Below are positions 23,007 through 43,191 of a stretch of 64,000 nt of DNA, one piece after another. The position numbers were made by a program, and so were the translations under genes. Positions within the stretch are counted from its first letter, which is position 1, and each line of letters starts with the position of its first letter. Source of the DNA: Caulobacter sp. 17J80-11 (GTDB taxonomy: Bacteria > Pseudomonadota > Alphaproteobacteria > Caulobacterales > Caulobacteraceae); NCBI RefSeq assembly GCF_014349105.1, contig NZ_JACSJI010000006.1:62001-126000 (forward strand), in the 5' to 3' direction. Below the pieces are notes generated by a model, which saw only the letters and a program-made list of their open reading frames with translations, had not been told where the DNA came from and searched no databases.

Positions 23007-25193
23007 TCAGGCCGCGGGCGACAGTTCCGCGGCCTGGGCCTGCTCCACGAGCGCGTCCAGGGCCCCGATCAGGTCGCGGACCAGATCGTCCTCGTGCTCC
23101 AGCCCGACCGAGACGCGAAGCAAGGAGTCGCCGATGCCGGCGCGGCGACGCGCGTCCGGATCCATGGCCGCATGGGTCATGGTGGCCGGGTGGGCGATCA
23201 GGCTCTCCACCCCGCCCAGCGACTCCGCCAGGGTGAAGACGCTGACGCCTTCGACGAGACGGCGCACGTCGTCGACGCCGCCGGCCAGCTCGAAGCTCAG
23301 CATGGCCCCGAAGCCGGACTGCTGGCGCTTGGCGATCTCGTGGCCCGGATGGCCGGGCAGGCCGGGATAGTGCACCGCGCGCACGGCCGGATGGACGGCC
23401 AGGGCCTCGGCCAGCTTCTGGGCGGTGACCTGCTGGCGCTCGACCCGCGCGAACAGGGTGCGCACGCCGCGGAGCGTCAGGTAAGCGTCGAACGGCGAGC
23501 CGGTCACGCCCAGGCAGTTGGCCCACCAGGTCAGGCGCTGGACGTCGTCCGGATCGGCCGCCACGACCGCGCCGCCGACCACGTCGGAGTGACCGTTCAC
23601 GTACTTGGTGGTGGAGTGGATCACGAGGTCCGCGCCCAGCCGGATCGGCTGCTGCAGGGCCGGCGACAGGAAGGTGTTGTCGACCGCGACCTTGGCTCCG
23701 ACCGCCTTGGCCTTGCGGCAGACCTCGGCGATGTCGACCAGGCGCATCAGCGGGTTGGACGGGCTTTCGATCAGCACCAGTTTCGGCCGTAGCGCCAGGG
23801 CGGCGTCCAGGGCCGCCGCGTCGGTCTGGTCGACGAACTCGACCTGGAAATGGCCCTTGCGCTGGCGGGCGCAGAGCAGGCGGTGGGTGCCGCCGTAGCA
23901 GTCATGCGGGGCCAGCAGCAGGTCGCCGGGCTCCAACTCGTGCAGCGCCAGGTCGACGGCGGCCATGCCGGTGGCGACCACCACCGCGCCGGCGCCGCCC
24001 TCGAGCTCCGCCAGGGTCTCGCCCAGCAGGTCGCGGGTGGGGTTGCCCGAGCGGGTGTAGTCGTAGCGCCGCTTCTGGTCGAAGCCGGCGAAGCTGTAAT
24101 TGCTGGACAGGTGCAGCGGCGGCATCACCGAGCCGAACGCCGGATCGCGATCGACGCCGGAGCGCGCCGCGGCGGTACAGGGGTGGATCGGCTGGGACAC
24201 GGCGGACTCCTGGGAGGCGGGAATGACGGCGGGGGAGGGCGCTGCGCCCTCGGCGAAGAAGCGGCGGAGGACGGAGGCGACCGCGTCGTCCTCCTTCAGG
24301 AAGGCGTCGTGGCCGTAGAGCGAGGGGCGCACGACCAGATCGGTCAGGGCGGGCAGGCGCCGCGCCAGGTCCTGCATGTCGGCCAGCGGCACCAGCCGGT
24401 CGGTGTCGAAGGCCAGCAGGGTGGTGGGCGCGACGACCGCCTCGGGGCGCACCCGGTGGCGGTCCATGCTGTCGGACAGGGCGATCCAGCGCGCCTCGGC
24501 CATCAGCTCGGGATAGGCCCGGCCCCGCGCGATCAGGTAGTCGCAGACCGGGTAGGCGCCGCCGGCCTCGGCCGGGGCCTCGCCGGCGAAGCGCTGCGCG
24601 AACTCGTCTGGCGTGCGGTAGGTGGTCATGGCCAGCTCGCGGGCCAGGGCGATGCCGTCGGCCGGGCGGCCGACTTCGCGGGCGAAGGCCAGGATGCGGC
24701 GCTGAATGCCGCGCCAGGCAGTGGCCATCGGGTGGGCCCGGTGGGCGGCGGAGATCACCAGCAGCCGTTCCAGCCGTTCGGGAAACCGCTCGGCGAAGGC
24801 CAGGCCGACCATGCCGCCGTAGGATGCGCCGACCCAGGCCGCCGCGCGTTCAACGCCGGCGGCGTCCAAGGCCAGGGCCAGCAGGCGGGCCTGGTCGCCG
24901 GTCGTCAGCGTCGGCGGCGTGCTCGCGCCTTCCGGGACGAAGTCGAAGCCCAGCACCTGCAGGCGCTCGAGATCGACCGGGCCGCCGGGGCGCACCACCT
25001 GCGGCCACCAGTCGGCCGCGTCGCGGCCGCTGGACACGCCGCCGGCGACGACCACGACGGGGGCGCCCGCCCGACCCTGCAGCCGGGCGCGGATATGCGT
25101 CTGCTCCAGCCGGCCGCCGGCCTCCAGCCGGAAGCTGTCGGGGATGGCGACTTCGAAGTCGCGTGCGCCGGTTTGTTCGTTCGCCGAAGTCAT
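23007..25193 (-). CDS. metX-metB: MetX-MetB fusion: homoserine O-acyltransferase / cystathionine gamma-synthase
   Basis: This 728-residue protein starts at ATG 25193 (upstream GGAGGCGGAAGAAGG). Residues about 1-325 form a MetX-type alpha/beta hydrolase that acylates homoserine: nucleophile S124 in GASYGGM, D265 in FDTDRLVP, H295 in YGHDAF. After a linker, residues about 345-725 match cystathionine gamma-synthase closely: VMPPLHLSSNYSF, ARSG-like YDYTRSGNPTRD, APHDCYGG, and PLP lysine K530 in HSTTKYVNGH. One polypeptide would thus make the acylated homoserine and use it with cysteine. Whether the acyl donor is acetyl- or succinyl-CoA is not decided here. A SAM-I riboswitch precedes it, and metL is divergent. 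Confidence 0.92.
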   Translation of the reverse strand: MTSANEQTGARDFEVAIPDSFRLEAGGRLEQTHIRARLQGRAGAPVVVVAGGVSSGRDAADWWPQVVRPGGPVDLERLQVLGFDFVPEGASTPPTLTTGDQARLLALALDAAGVERAAAWVGASYGGMVGLAFAERFPERLERLLVISAAHRAHPMATAWRGIQRRILAFAREVGRPADGIALARELAMTTYRTPDEFAQRFAGEAPAEAGGAYPVCDYLIARGRAYPELMAEARWIALSDSMDRHRVRPEAVVAPTTLLAFDTDRLVPLADMQDLARRLPALTDLVVRPSLYGHDAFLKEDDAVASVLRRFFAEGAAPSPAVIPASQESAVSQPIHPCTAAARSGVDRDPAFGSVMPPLHLSSNYSFAGFDQKRRYDYTRSGNPTRDLLGETLAELEGGAGAVVVATGMAAVDLALHELEPGDLLLAPHDCYGGTHRLLCARQRKGHFQVEFVDQTDAAALDAALALRPKLVLIESPSNPLMRLVDIAEVCRKAKAVGAKVAVDNTFLSPALQQPIRLGADLVIHSTTKYVNGHSDVVGGAVVAADPDDVQRLTWWANCLGVTGSPFDAYLTLRGVRTLFARVERQQVTAQKLAEALAVHPAVRAVHYPGLPGHPGHEIAKRQQSGFGAMLSFELAGGVDDVRRLVEGVSVFTLAESLGGVESLIAHPATMTHAAMDPDARRRAGIGDSLLRVSVGLEHEDDLVRDLIGALDALVEQAQAAELSPAA
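23008..23036. terminator. Hairpin at the convergent SIMPL / metX-metB junction
   Basis: CAGGCCGCGG (23008-23017) and CCGCGGCCTG (23027-23036) form a perfect 10-bp stem with a 9-base loop, nine bases past the SIMPL stop and inside the last codons of metX-metB. It is a likely transcript end for the upstream gene. Confidence 0.5.
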
Positions 25194-25201
25194 CGGCCTT
25201 C

Positions 25202-25259
25202 TTCCGCCTCCCACTCAGGAGAGCTCCGGCGGAAACGAAAGACCGTGAAGCGCGCACGG
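25202..25259 (-). promoter_or_regulatory. Candidate expression platform of the SAM riboswitch
   Basis: Two alternative structures lie between the aptamer and the metX-metB start. On the minus strand CCGTG and CACGG (25259-25243) form a short stem followed by the T-rich TCTTTCGTTT, terminator-like. TTCCGCC and GGCGGAA (arms 25228-25234 and 25202-25208) form a 7-bp stem that would mask the ribosome-binding site. Which one operates is not decided by the sequence. Confidence 0.45.
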
Positions 25260-25280
25260 CCCTTGGGCGGCATGCGCTCC

Positions 25281-25385
25281 ACTCATCTGTCGCGGACCTG
25301 AGGTCCCCGCAGGAGTTGGCACCTTGCGCGAAGCGCAGGTTGCCCCGGCGTCAAAGGGCCTGTCCCTCAGCCGGTCTCGATGAGT
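25281..25385 (-). ncRNA. SAM-I (S-box) riboswitch
   Basis: The minus strand carries the S-box core in order: P1 arm ACTCATC, GAG, the conserved GAGGGACAGGCCC segment, GACGCCGGGGCAACC, a small stem with a CGCTTCGCG loop, AAGGTGCCAACTCCTGC, and GACAGATGAGT closing P1 with seven perfect pairs. These conserved blocks are diagnostic of the SAM-I class. It lies 88 bases upstream of the metX-metB start and should lower expression when S-adenosylmethionine is high. Confidence 0.93.
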
Positions 25386-25391
25386 GAGTTC

Positions 25392-40136: not shown

Positions 40137-41510
40137 GTGACCCAGAGATGGACGCCGCAATCCTGGCGGAACCGGCCCGCCACCCAGATCCCGACGGACT
40201 ACCCTGATCCGGCGGCGCTCGCGCGCGCCGAGGACCGTCTGCGGGCCATGCCGCCGCTCGTGTTCGCGGGCGAAGCGCGGCGCCTCAAGTCGCGCCTGGC
40301 CGACGTGGCCGAGGGCCGCGCCTTCCTGCTGCAGGGCGGCGACTGCGCCGAGAGCTTCAAGGAGTTCCACGCCGACAACGTGCGCGACACCTTCCGCCTG
40401 ATCCTGCAGATGGCGGTGGTGCTGACCTTCGCGGGCGGCAAGCCGGTGGTGAAGGTGGGGCGCATCGCCGGCCAGTTCGCCAAGCCGCGCTCCAGCCAGG
40501 TCGAGACCCAGGGCGACGTCACCCTGCCGGCCTATCGCGGCGACATCGTCAACGGCATGGGCTTCACCGCCGAGGAGCGCGTGCCGGATCCGGAACGGCT
40601 GCTGCGCGCCTACTCGCAGTCGGCCGCGACGCTGAACCTGCTGCGGGCGCTGGCCGGCGGCGGCTTCGCCGACCTGTACAACGTGCACCGCTGGACGCTG
40701 GGCTTCATCGCCGACAGCCCGCAGAGCGCGCGCTACCGCGAGCTAGCCGACAAGATCAGCGAGACCCTGGCCTTCATGGCCGCCATCGGCGTGACCCCGG
40801 AGACCCATCCGGACATCCGCCAGGTCGAGCTGTTCACCAGCCACGAGGCGCTGTTGCTGAACTACGAGGAGGCGCTGACCCGCGTCGATACGACCACCGG
40901 CGACTGGTACGACACCTCCGCCCACATGGTCTGGATCGGCGAGCGCACCCGTCAGCCCGACGGCGCGCACCTGGAGTTCGTGCGCGGCATCAAGAACCCG
41001 ATCGGGATGAAGTGCGGCCCGACCATGGAGCCGGTCGAGTTGCTCCGCCTGATCGACCAGATCAACCCGAACAACGAGCCGGGTCGCCTGACCCTGATCG
41101 GCCGCTTCGGCGCGGACAAGATCGCCGACCGCCTGCCGCGCCTGATGGCCGCGACCAAGCGCGAAGGCCGTTCGGTCGTGTGGTCGACCGACCCGATGCA
41201 CGGCAACACGCTGAAGGCCGCCAACGGCTACAAGACCCGGCCCTTCGACCGCGTGCTGTCCGAGGTGAAGACCTTCGTCGAGGTCGCGGGCGGGGAGGGC
41301 GTCCACCCCGGCGGCGTGCACCTGGAGATGACCGGCCAGGACGTCACCGAGTGCCTGGGCGGGGCCCAGGCCCTGACCGAGGACGACCTGTCCAGCCGCT
41401 ACCACACCCACTGCGATCCGCGGCTGAACGCCGACCAGGCGCTGGAGCTGGCCTTCCTGGTCGCCGAGAAGCTGCGCGCCGGGCGCGGCGAGCGGTCGGC
41501 CGCCGCATGA
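40137..41510 (+). CDS. aroG: Class II 3-deoxy-7-phosphoheptulonate synthase (DAHP synthase)
   Basis: This 457-residue plant/mycobacterial-type (class II) enzyme condenses phosphoenolpyruvate and erythrose 4-phosphate, the first shikimate step. Motifs include [43 protein letters not shown] and [10 protein letters not shown]. The start is GTG 40137. It overlaps the prephenate dehydratase gene by four bases (ATGA), so entry into and exit from the aromatic pathway are translated together. Confidence 0.95.
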
Positions 41511-42070
41511 GCGAAGGCGGGGGCGTGATCGCCTACCAGGGCGAGCCCGGGGCTTTCAGCCACGAGGCGTGCCTCGCCTTCTTCCCCGACTACGAGCCGC
41601 GGGCCTGCGCCACCTTCCAAGCGGCGGTGGACGCGGTCGAGCGGCGCATGGCCGATCTGGCCCTTCTGCCGGTGGAGAACTCCATCGCCGGTCCGGTGCC
41701 GGAGATGGAGGCGATCCTGCGCGCCACCCAGCTGAAAGTGCTGGGCGAGCGCACCTGGCCGATCCGTCTGCAGCTGCTGGGCGTGCCGGGCGCGGAGCTT
41801 GAGCACGTGCGCGTGGTGCGCAGCCACCCGATGGCCCTGAAGCAGTGCACGCGCCTGCTGGCCGATCTCGGCGCCAAGGCGGAGCCCGTCCACGACACCG
41901 CCGGCGCGGCGCGCGCCTTGTCGCAGGCGCCGGACCCGCACGTGGCCGCGGTGGCCTCGGCCAAGGCCGGCCAGCTCTATGGATTGCAGGTGTTGCGCGC
42001 CAATATCGAGGACGTCCACTCGAACGCCACGCGCTTCGTGGTGCTCGCCCGCGAGCAGGCCCCCGCTTGA
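41507..42070 (+). CDS. pheA: Prephenate dehydratase without ACT domain
   Basis: This 187-residue enzyme converts prephenate to phenylpyruvate. It has the catalytic fold signature [30 protein letters not shown] and the terminal [10 protein letters not shown] with the Thr-Arg-Phe motif. Typical bacterial prephenate dehydratases have about 280 residues with a C-terminal ACT domain for phenylalanine inhibition; here the protein stops right after the catalytic domain. No ACT-like sequence is seen in other frames downstream. It is coupled to the DAHP synthase gene by ATGA. Confidence 0.9.
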
Positions 42071-42096
42071 CAGCTTCCCGCGGCGCCTGACAGGGT
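42067..42096 (+). promoter_or_regulatory. Possible promoter before the aromatic leader
   Basis: TTGACA (42067-42072) overlaps the pheA stop codon. A weak -10, CAGGGT (42091-42096), follows after 18 bases. It is well placed to start transcription about 40 bases before the leader ORF, but the -10 match is poor. Confidence 0.3.
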
Positions 42097-42142
42097 CACG
42101 TCGCCGGAATTTCTCGGCGCGCCCACACCCGGGAGCGGACCC

Positions 42143-42256
42143 ATGACCAAGCAGGGGACTGTTTCGACCGACACGCAAGTGCGGACGGGTGAATTCTATT
42201 TCTATTTTAGCACCTATTACTTTCGATACGCCGGCGAGGCGGTCGTACGAGGCTAG
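42143..42256 (+). CDS. Candidate Phe/Tyr leader peptide
   Basis: This 37-codon ORF has a good Shine-Dalgarno (GGGAG, about 8 bases upstream). Codons 18-29 read FYFYFSTYYFRY: four Phe and five Tyr in twelve residues, many as TAT or TTT, which are uncommon in this GC-rich sequence. It ends 146 bases before the chorismate mutase gene. Such runs mark leader peptides that sense charged tRNA(Phe) and tRNA(Tyr). The peptide has no other recognisable feature. Confidence 0.75.
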   Translation: MTKQGTVSTDTQVRTGEFYFYFSTYYFRYAGEAVVRG

Positions 42257-42300
42257 GCGAGCCTAAGCTCCTCCCTCCGATCCCAGCCGGCGACCGCCTC
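42236..42300 (+). promoter_or_regulatory. Leader stem-loop downstream of the aromatic codons
   Basis: GAGGCGGTCG (42236-42245), starting seven bases after the last Tyr codon, pairs perfectly over 10 bp with CGACCGCCTC (42291-42300). A smaller stem, AGGCT/AGCCT, lies inside the loop. Six T residues follow at 42322-42327, too far for a canonical terminator. A ribosome stalled on the aromatic codons would affect folding of the first arm. The rest of the gap to 42402 shows no other feature. Confidence 0.55.
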
Positions 42301-42402
42301 TGAAGAGCGCGGCCCATCCCCTTTTTTGAGCGCTGAACATCCCTTGCGGACGCCCGCCCTGAACGCGCGCGGACTCCGCCCGAATTCTACGAGTCCATTC
42401 CC

Positions 42403-43191
42403 ATGCTGAACGCCGCCCTCGCCGAGCCGATCACGGCCGCCGAACCCGCCTCCGCTACTACTGAAGCCCTCTCCGTCGCCGACCTGCGCGCCGAGATCGA
42501 CCGCATCGACGACGCCCTCCTCGAACTGGTCGAGCAGCGCCAGGCCCTGGCCCGCCGGGTCGGCACGGCCAAGGGCGGCGACGACGGCCGCCTGCGCCTG
42601 AAACCCGACCGCGAAGCCGCGGTGGTCGAGCGGCTGGTCCGCAAGGCCCAACCCTGGTCCAAGCGCCTCGTCGCCGCCCTGTGGCGCGAGCTGATGTCGG
42701 CCGGCCTGTCGACCCAGTCGGAAGTCGAAGTGGTGGTCTGGGCCGGCGCCGATCCCGCCCGCCGGCTGGACGCCGCGCGCCGCCGCTTCGGCTCCTCCGC
42801 CGACTACCGGCTGGTCGCCACCGCTCAGGAGGCGCTGGACGCGGCCGAGCAGGGCGGAGCGGTGGCCGTGCTGGCGGTCGAGCCCGACGCGCCCTGGTGG
42901 ACCGACCTGCCCGAGCGCGAGGACCTGTGGATCTTCGACGCCCTGCACGGCCCGCGCGCGGCCGAGCCGACCGCGCTGGCGGTCGGCCGGGTCAGCGAGA
43001 ACGCCCTGGCCCGCGGCCAGGTGTTCCGGATCTCCACCGGCGGCGACGGCGACGACACCGGGGCGCGTCCCCGGCTGGTGGCCATGGACCAGGGCGTGCG
43101 CCTCTACGCGGTGACCGAGACCTCGGCCGCGACGGCCAAGCTCGATCGCGCCCGCGGCTATGTCGGCCGCTGCAGCCGGGCGCTGGCTTAA
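42403..43191 (+). CDS. Chorismate mutase with C-terminal extension
   Basis: The N-terminal part (residues about 27-110) of this 262-residue protein is an AroQ-class chorismate mutase: LRAEIDRIDDALLELVEQRQ (first helix), LARRVGTAKGG and a later LWRELMSAGL. It converts chorismate to prephenate for Phe and Tyr. The remaining 150 residues (VVVWAGADPARRL, AVEPDAPWWTDLP, GVRLYAVTE) are not recognised with certainty; they could be a degenerate prephenate dehydratase-like or regulatory domain. The Phe/Tyr leader ORF immediately upstream probably controls this gene. Confidence 0.88.
   Translation: MLNAALAEPITAAEPASATTEALSVADLRAEIDRIDDALLELVEQRQALARRVGTAKGGDDGRLRLKPDREAAVVERLVRKAQPWSKRLVAALWRELMSAGLSTQSEVEVVVWAGADPARRLDAARRRFGSSADYRLVATAQEALDAAEQGGAVAVLAVEPDAPWWTDLPEREDLWIFDALHGPRAAEPTALAVGRVSENALARGQVFRISTGGDGDDTGARPRLVAMDQGVRLYAVTETSAATAKLDRARGYVGRCSRALA

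Follow-up and report, generated by a model that had tools for sequence, protein, structure and literature searches.

Why does a short open reading frame (ORF) crowded with phenylalanine and tyrosine codons lie directly in front of a chorismate mutase gene? The question is raised by a locus in the window analysed here (the whole stretch of 64,000 nucleotides, or 64 kb, from contig NZ_JACSJI010000006.1 of Caulobacter sp. 17J80-11), where the leader stands between pheA, itself preceded by a class II DAHP synthase gene, and chorismate mutase, which is followed by a MATE transporter gene. A first-pass annotation had described the leader as a 37-codon ORF with a ribosome-binding site and with nine aromatic codons among codons 18-29, four for Phe and five for Tyr; both the ORF and this count were confirmed (Table 1). 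The predicted translation is MTKQGTVSTDTQVRTGEFYFYFSTYYFRYAGEAVVRG, with Phe codons at 18, 20, 22, and 27 and Tyr codons at 19, 21, 25, 26, and 29. By comparing this leader with its relatives, we concluded that it probably represents a family of leader-peptide attenuators, most likely translational in the family, which link chorismate mutase to the supply of charged Phe- and Tyr-tRNA.

Chance is not the source of the aromatic codon cluster. Nowhere in the 64 kb window outside the leader ORF did a 12-codon stretch hold six or more Phe or Tyr codons, and none with at least eight was found in 149 kb of control loci. Upstream of the same chorismate mutase gene, 106 distinct orthologous leaders were identified in four Caulobacteraceae genera, namely the window's genus (two genomes), Brevundimonas, and two further genera. 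The last 15 codons contained both Phe and Tyr in all 106 leaders (means 2.8 and 3.8, respectively) and Trp in none; such clusters ahead of a pathway gene are what a leader attenuator is expected to carry, and they support the annotation's proposal of a ribosome-mediated attenuator that senses both amino acids. The aromatic positions nearest the leader end were the most conserved, namely -9, -6, 0, and +6 relative to an invariant TTT codon (aromatic in 97-106 of the 106 leaders), with TTC, TTT, or TAT at -9 depending on the lineage. The window leader has the longest aromatic run seen (nine codons), which is still aromatic in the sister genome despite nucleotide changes. Sensing of both Phe and Tyr would fit chorismate mutase, which lies ahead of the Phe/Tyr branch.

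From position -3 on, the codons GGC TTT CGA TAC GCC GGC TGA were nearly fixed in the 106 leaders, wobble positions included, and the peptide ended in GFRYAG-stop in nearly all relatives. The fixed wobble bases of the near-invariant element A point to RNA pairing on top of coding. Its 3' part forms the 5' arm of a hairpin, P1, and its 5' part is predicted to pair with the ribosome-binding region of chorismate mutase in relatives. In an alignment of 48 relatives, P1 joins element A to a downstream element B: the leader GCCGGC-UGAGGC, which includes the leader stop codon, pairs with GCCUC-CCGGC, and 98.3% of the cells were paired. Directly after P1, a second hairpin, P2, was paired in 95.8%, and both sides had changed in four of its seven pairs.

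In relatives, the 5' part of element A, GGCUUUCGAUACG, is complementary to the sequence just upstream of the chorismate mutase start, either AUCGAAA or CGAAAGCC or both. The latter spans the GAAAG Shine-Dalgarno sequence of chorismate mutase in relatives, and the leader-to-target helix can be written GGCUUUCG:CGAAAGCC. The last leader codons, GGC-UUU-CGA-UAC, face the region that adjoins or covers the Shine-Dalgarno sequence, so that in relatives the regulatory codons themselves are complementary to the ribosome-binding region. At least seven exact complementary bases were present before the gene start in 96 of the 106 leaders, compared with about 10 expected from dinucleotide shuffles. Among 12 leaders that were mutually less than 60% identical, 10 had the complementarity against a background of 4.6% per sequence (p ~3e-12), and different lineages employed different parts of the complement. 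Judged from these sequences, relatedness does not explain the complementarity, because it is kept in 10 of 12 diverged leaders. Two leaders (L111 and L153) showed a perfect 13-base-pair (bp) pairing over the Shine-Dalgarno sequence, and L107 provided a compensatory case, in which the leader codon is GAG in place of GGC and the target GAAACTC matches. The helix A:D1 was paired in 92.9% of cells. When the whole structure was slid by 1-3 columns, pairing fell from 96% to 33-52%; the arm near the Shine-Dalgarno sequence, taken alone, was 86% paired compared with 21-64% when slid. The leader, its codons, the helices, and the complementarity are thus conserved by computation.

The effect of a stalled ribosome was modelled as a blocked footprint, and the readout was the energy needed to open the start region of chorismate mutase. 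In the model, an A-site at -12 to +6 lowered the median opening cost from 8.0 to about 5 kcal/mol, and stalls further upstream had little effect. With the A-site at -6, the predicted median fall was 4.3 kcal/mol, compared with 0.15 when the target was shuffled. The stall codons that opened the site were the most conserved aromatic codons. We therefore propose the following mechanism for the family. When Phe and Tyr are sufficient, element A would pair with element B in P1, and GGCUUUCGAUACG would pair next to or over the Shine-Dalgarno sequence; the leader codons would thereby lock the start site and keep chorismate mutase closed. When Phe or Tyr is short, the ribosome would stall at a conserved Phe or Tyr codon just before or inside element A and mask it, the ribosome-binding site would be freed, and chorismate mutase would be turned on. 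Expression of chorismate mutase would then track how much charged Phe- and Tyr-tRNA is available. Transcription of the region, the stalling, and the sign and size of the response are what we infer.

Several observations weigh against this reading. Because element A does not vary, the helices between it and its targets (A:D) showed almost no covariation, and the arm near the Shine-Dalgarno sequence showed none. The p-value of the comparison between stalled and shuffled models leaves the relatedness of the leaders uncorrected. A ribosome at the leader stop codon likewise opened the site in the model, and therefore the logic would hinge on dwell times. Finally, in the window and its only sister, L003, the longest exact match to the pairing arm was four bases, and a modelled stall in the window did not open the start region (-1.3 kcal/mol).

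The copy in the window therefore has to be considered separately. The leader with its FRYAG codons and both hairpins, P1 and P2, are retained in the window and L003, and position, leader sequence, and these two hairpins mark the copy as a member of the family by descent. No pairing arm to its regulatory codons is recognisable in the ribosome-binding region. The region before the start codon is covered by a local hairpin instead, which recurs in the sister, where it contains a G-U pair. The usual leader stop is lost in both genomes; in the window, the T of TGA is missing and the stop is shifted eight codons downstream. The minimum-energy fold uses P1 and P2, with ordinary overall stability (z -0.92). 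Two other candidates for a target were rejected. The first, GGTCGTACGAGG as a target of element A, is only a local match just downstream that would compete with P1, and the fold does not favour it. The second, seen in the minimum-energy fold, joins leader codons to the start codon over 7 bp; it is weaker in the sister and had no effect in the stall model. As a separate observation, the pairing of element A with GGTCGTACGAGG (42212-42262) amounts to about -11 kcal/mol in both the window and L003. The output step of the window copy may be Rho-dependent, structurally different, or decayed.

For the window's genus alone, the element could be a degenerating relic, in which the leader persists without control of chorismate mutase. 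The loss of the leader stop, the absence of the arm in both genomes, and the lack of effect of modelled stalling on the start region would agree with this, but the aromatic run, the longest of all and still aromatic in the sister, and the retention of element A, P1, and P2 would not. We regard such a decay as possible but unlikely.

Table 1 Features of the leader and its locus (positions in the window).
Feature	Position	Strand	Remarks
Class II DAHP synthase	40137..41510	+	upstream neighbour
pheA	41513..42070	+	prephenate dehydratase domain alone, without ACT domain
-35-like hexamer TTGACA	42067..42072	+	overlaps the pheA stop codon; TTGAC at the equivalent place in relatives inspected
Shine-Dalgarno sequence of leader ORF, GGGAG	42131..42135	+	read straight from the sequence
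Leader peptide ORF	42143..42256	+	37 codons, 4 Phe and 5 Tyr within codons 18-29
Element A, TTT CGA TAC GCC GGC	42221..42235	+	near-invariant in 106 leaders
P1 hairpin	42229..42292	+	CGCCGGC (42229-42235) : GCCGGCG (42286-42292); minimum-energy fold of the window
10-bp stem	42236..42300	+	GAGGCGGTCG (42236-42245) / CGACCGCCTC (42291-42300); alternative to P1 and P2
P2 hairpin	42294..42312	+	CCGCCTC-TGAA-GAG(C)GCGG; minimum-energy fold of the window
T6 run	42322..42327	+	no adjoining terminator hairpin; not conserved
Local hairpin GGACTC / GAGTCC	42371..42396	+	just 5' of the chorismate mutase start; sequence and fold, two species
Chorismate mutase (regulated gene)	42403..43191	+	CM_2 domain at residues 28-105

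The first-pass annotation had also drawn attention to a 10-bp stem and a T6 run, and both are present in the window (Table 1). Neither proved to be the key element. The stem is mismatched in L003, the fold uses P1 and P2 in its place, and the conserved structure consists of P1 and P2 together with the long-range arm in relatives; an alignment of relatives, proposed as a check, thus upheld the aromatic run in 106 leaders and not the stem. The T6 run is found only in the window: the sister has T3 there, and in the remaining 105 leaders no T-run from the hairpins to the gene exceeds four. No intrinsic terminator was recognised in 42000-42450, which agrees with the annotation's view that no canonical terminator hairpin abuts the T-run and that the mechanism may differ from that of known pheA attenuators; a non-transcriptional mechanism is likely.

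The missing terminator and an untranslated gap of 110-180 nucleotides (nt) would be consistent with Rho-dependent attenuation, in which the untranslated RNA becomes open to Rho after leader termination unless a stalled ribosome or P1 prevents it. Such a mechanism could operate in the window, where the pairing with the ribosome-binding site is missing, but it leaves the conserved pairing at the start region of the relatives unexplained, and we consider it quite improbable. Classical transcription attenuation in the style of E. coli pheA, with P1 as antiterminator and P2 as intrinsic terminator, is very unlikely. A leader ORF that carries regulatory codons and precedes two adjoining hairpins resembles such an arrangement, and there is a precedent among leader coding sequences in ilvBN of C. 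crescentus (PMC4117421). However, the intrinsic terminator exclusive with an antiterminator that characterises pheL/trpL-type attenuators was not found: P1 and P2 adjoin and are not mutually exclusive, T-runs behave as described above, and the conserved complement at the gene start would be left unexplained. Least credible is an arrest by the nascent peptide, in which the C-terminal GFRYAG would stall the ribosome and sense Phe or Tyr directly: GFRYAG-stop is almost invariant and the window retains FRYAG though the arm was not found there, but the residue at -3 can be Gly, Tyr, Asp, Glu, or Ala and that at +6 His or Arg, the invariance reaches the wobble bases as expected of RNA pairing, and the window peptide runs eight residues beyond FRYAG. 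Translational control by codon-to-Shine-Dalgarno pairing thus remains our preferred reading for the family.

A TTGAC box over or near the pheA stop codon was shared by the relatives that were inspected and is, from its sequence, a candidate -35 element of a separate promoter; a sigma-70 scan of 42000-42450 found no site. In a group of Brevundimonas loci (L048, L041, L053, L056, and L067), the leader ATG lies only ~37 nt past the start of the TTGAC box, and the leader peptide of this group may be translated from a leaderless mRNA. The end of pheA holds two copies of TTGACGG in L107 and L051, with a spacing of 17 nt. In the chorismate mutase of the window, ~150 residues after CM_2 had no Pfam match, and the best NCBIfam model over this C-terminal part was a 'hypothetical protein' family, below the cut-off.

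The distribution of the element was investigated with the 15-mer TTTCGATACGCCGGY and with a covariance model trained on 48 relatives, from which the window and its sister were left out. The 15-mer was present in 134 of 390 Caulobacteraceae genomes, nearly all of them Brevundimonas, and nearly all Brevundimonas genomes searched carry the element. Matches to the 15-mer outside the four genera had no leader in those that were read. The covariance model ranked the window copy as the top match of its own genome (E = 0.0044). By both searches the element was confined to the four genera, within the reach of an order-wide covariance search whose strict filters lose weak matches, left the window's own copy unreported, and may miss diverged copies. 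In genera without the leader, the chorismate mutase was more distant. The source genome is akin to Caulobacter sp. 17J65-9, with chorismate mutases ~95% identical. No Rfam family matched the window or five relatives even at E = 1, and the covariance models of the Rfam Phe leader and of other Rfam leader families were likewise unmatched in these six sequences.

PheA was confirmed to lack an ACT domain, as the annotation had stated, and it is the sole prephenate dehydratase in the genome. An ACT-less PheA was seen in all four leader-bearing genera, whereas the sampled PheA proteins from four leaderless genera have the domain. The partnership of both traits is imperfect: in genus g17, PheA lacks the domain and chorismate mutase has no leader in front of it. 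The pattern would fit a move of regulation to the RNA level, but it is only suggestive, since the genera may be a single clade.

Two further observations were made outside the locus. A SAM-I (S box) riboswitch (90 bits) was found at 25280-25386 on the minus strand of the window, upstream of ORF 23007-25214 (-). This ORF encodes 735 amino acids, whose halves resemble, by eye, a homoserine acetyltransferase and a pyridoxal phosphate-dependent cystathionine/homocysteine synthase; it is an apparent metX-metB fusion. A second, divergent chorismate mutase-like gene lies on contig 11 of the same genome (L245, 1840-2544), directly 5' of an apparent histidinol-phosphate/aromatic aminotransferase gene.

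Attenuators with related features are known. The gamma-proteobacterial pheA/pheL system has Phe-only codons, an intrinsic terminator and antiterminator, and a bifunctional chorismate mutase-prephenate dehydratase. It shares with the Phe/Tyr leader an aromatic-codon leader peptide over the chorismate mutase/prephenate branch. However, the Phe/Tyr leader matches no Rfam model, and a search for the terminator that defines classical pheA attenuators was negative; the leader is therefore not one of them. In the drug-induced translational attenuators of erm and cat (see PMC5118997), the stalling of a ribosome within the leader ORF makes a ribosome-binding site further downstream accessible; unlike in the Phe/Tyr leader, an antibiotic causes the stalling, and local hairpins are used rather than codon-to-Shine-Dalgarno pairing. 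In C. crescentus, leader coding sequences before trpS and ilvBN were identified by ribosome profiling, and that of ilvBN is described as acting by transcription attenuation with a terminator (PMC4117421). These come from related bacteria and contain amino-acid-specific codons, but they precede other genes, and neither chorismate nor phenylalanine is mentioned in the text of that paper.

The literature searched, mostly subscription-free and with the proteobacterial attenuator survey of Vitreschak et al. (2004) outside its scope, contained no description of the Phe/Tyr leader. The full claim is that of a previously undescribed Phe/Tyr translational attenuator of Caulobacteraceae, present in more than 100 genomes, whose sensing codons are themselves the lock on the ribosome-binding site of the following gene and which reads two amino acids with a single element at the metabolic branch point, with the window's genus having lost the stop and the arm and moved to another output; for this combination, we find the case for and the case against evenly balanced. 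Few cases of starvation-driven translational attenuation via direct codon-to-Shine-Dalgarno pairing have been described. The present element is short and clearly delimited, its specific mechanism is testable, it occurs where PheA, the partner enzyme of the pathway, no longer has its feedback (ACT) domain, and the divergent window copy illustrates how an element of this kind can be rewired.

Of the systems described so far, the LEU element of Actinobacteria comes closest; the leucine codons of its leader have a predicted pairing with the Shine-Dalgarno sequence of leuA (PMC1262725). Both systems share this predicted pairing between leader codons and the Shine-Dalgarno sequence of the controlled biosynthetic gene, and no terminator has been described. 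The LEU element differs in its amino acid, gene, and phylum, and in a pseudoknot inside a base stem; the leucine codons, leuA, and pseudoknot that characterise it are not present in the Phe/Tyr leader, which has two adjoining hairpins (P1 and P2), mixed Phe/Tyr codons, and chorismate mutase as its gene, and no sequence relation was seen. The Phe/Tyr leader is predicted to work like the LEU element and is not a member of it.
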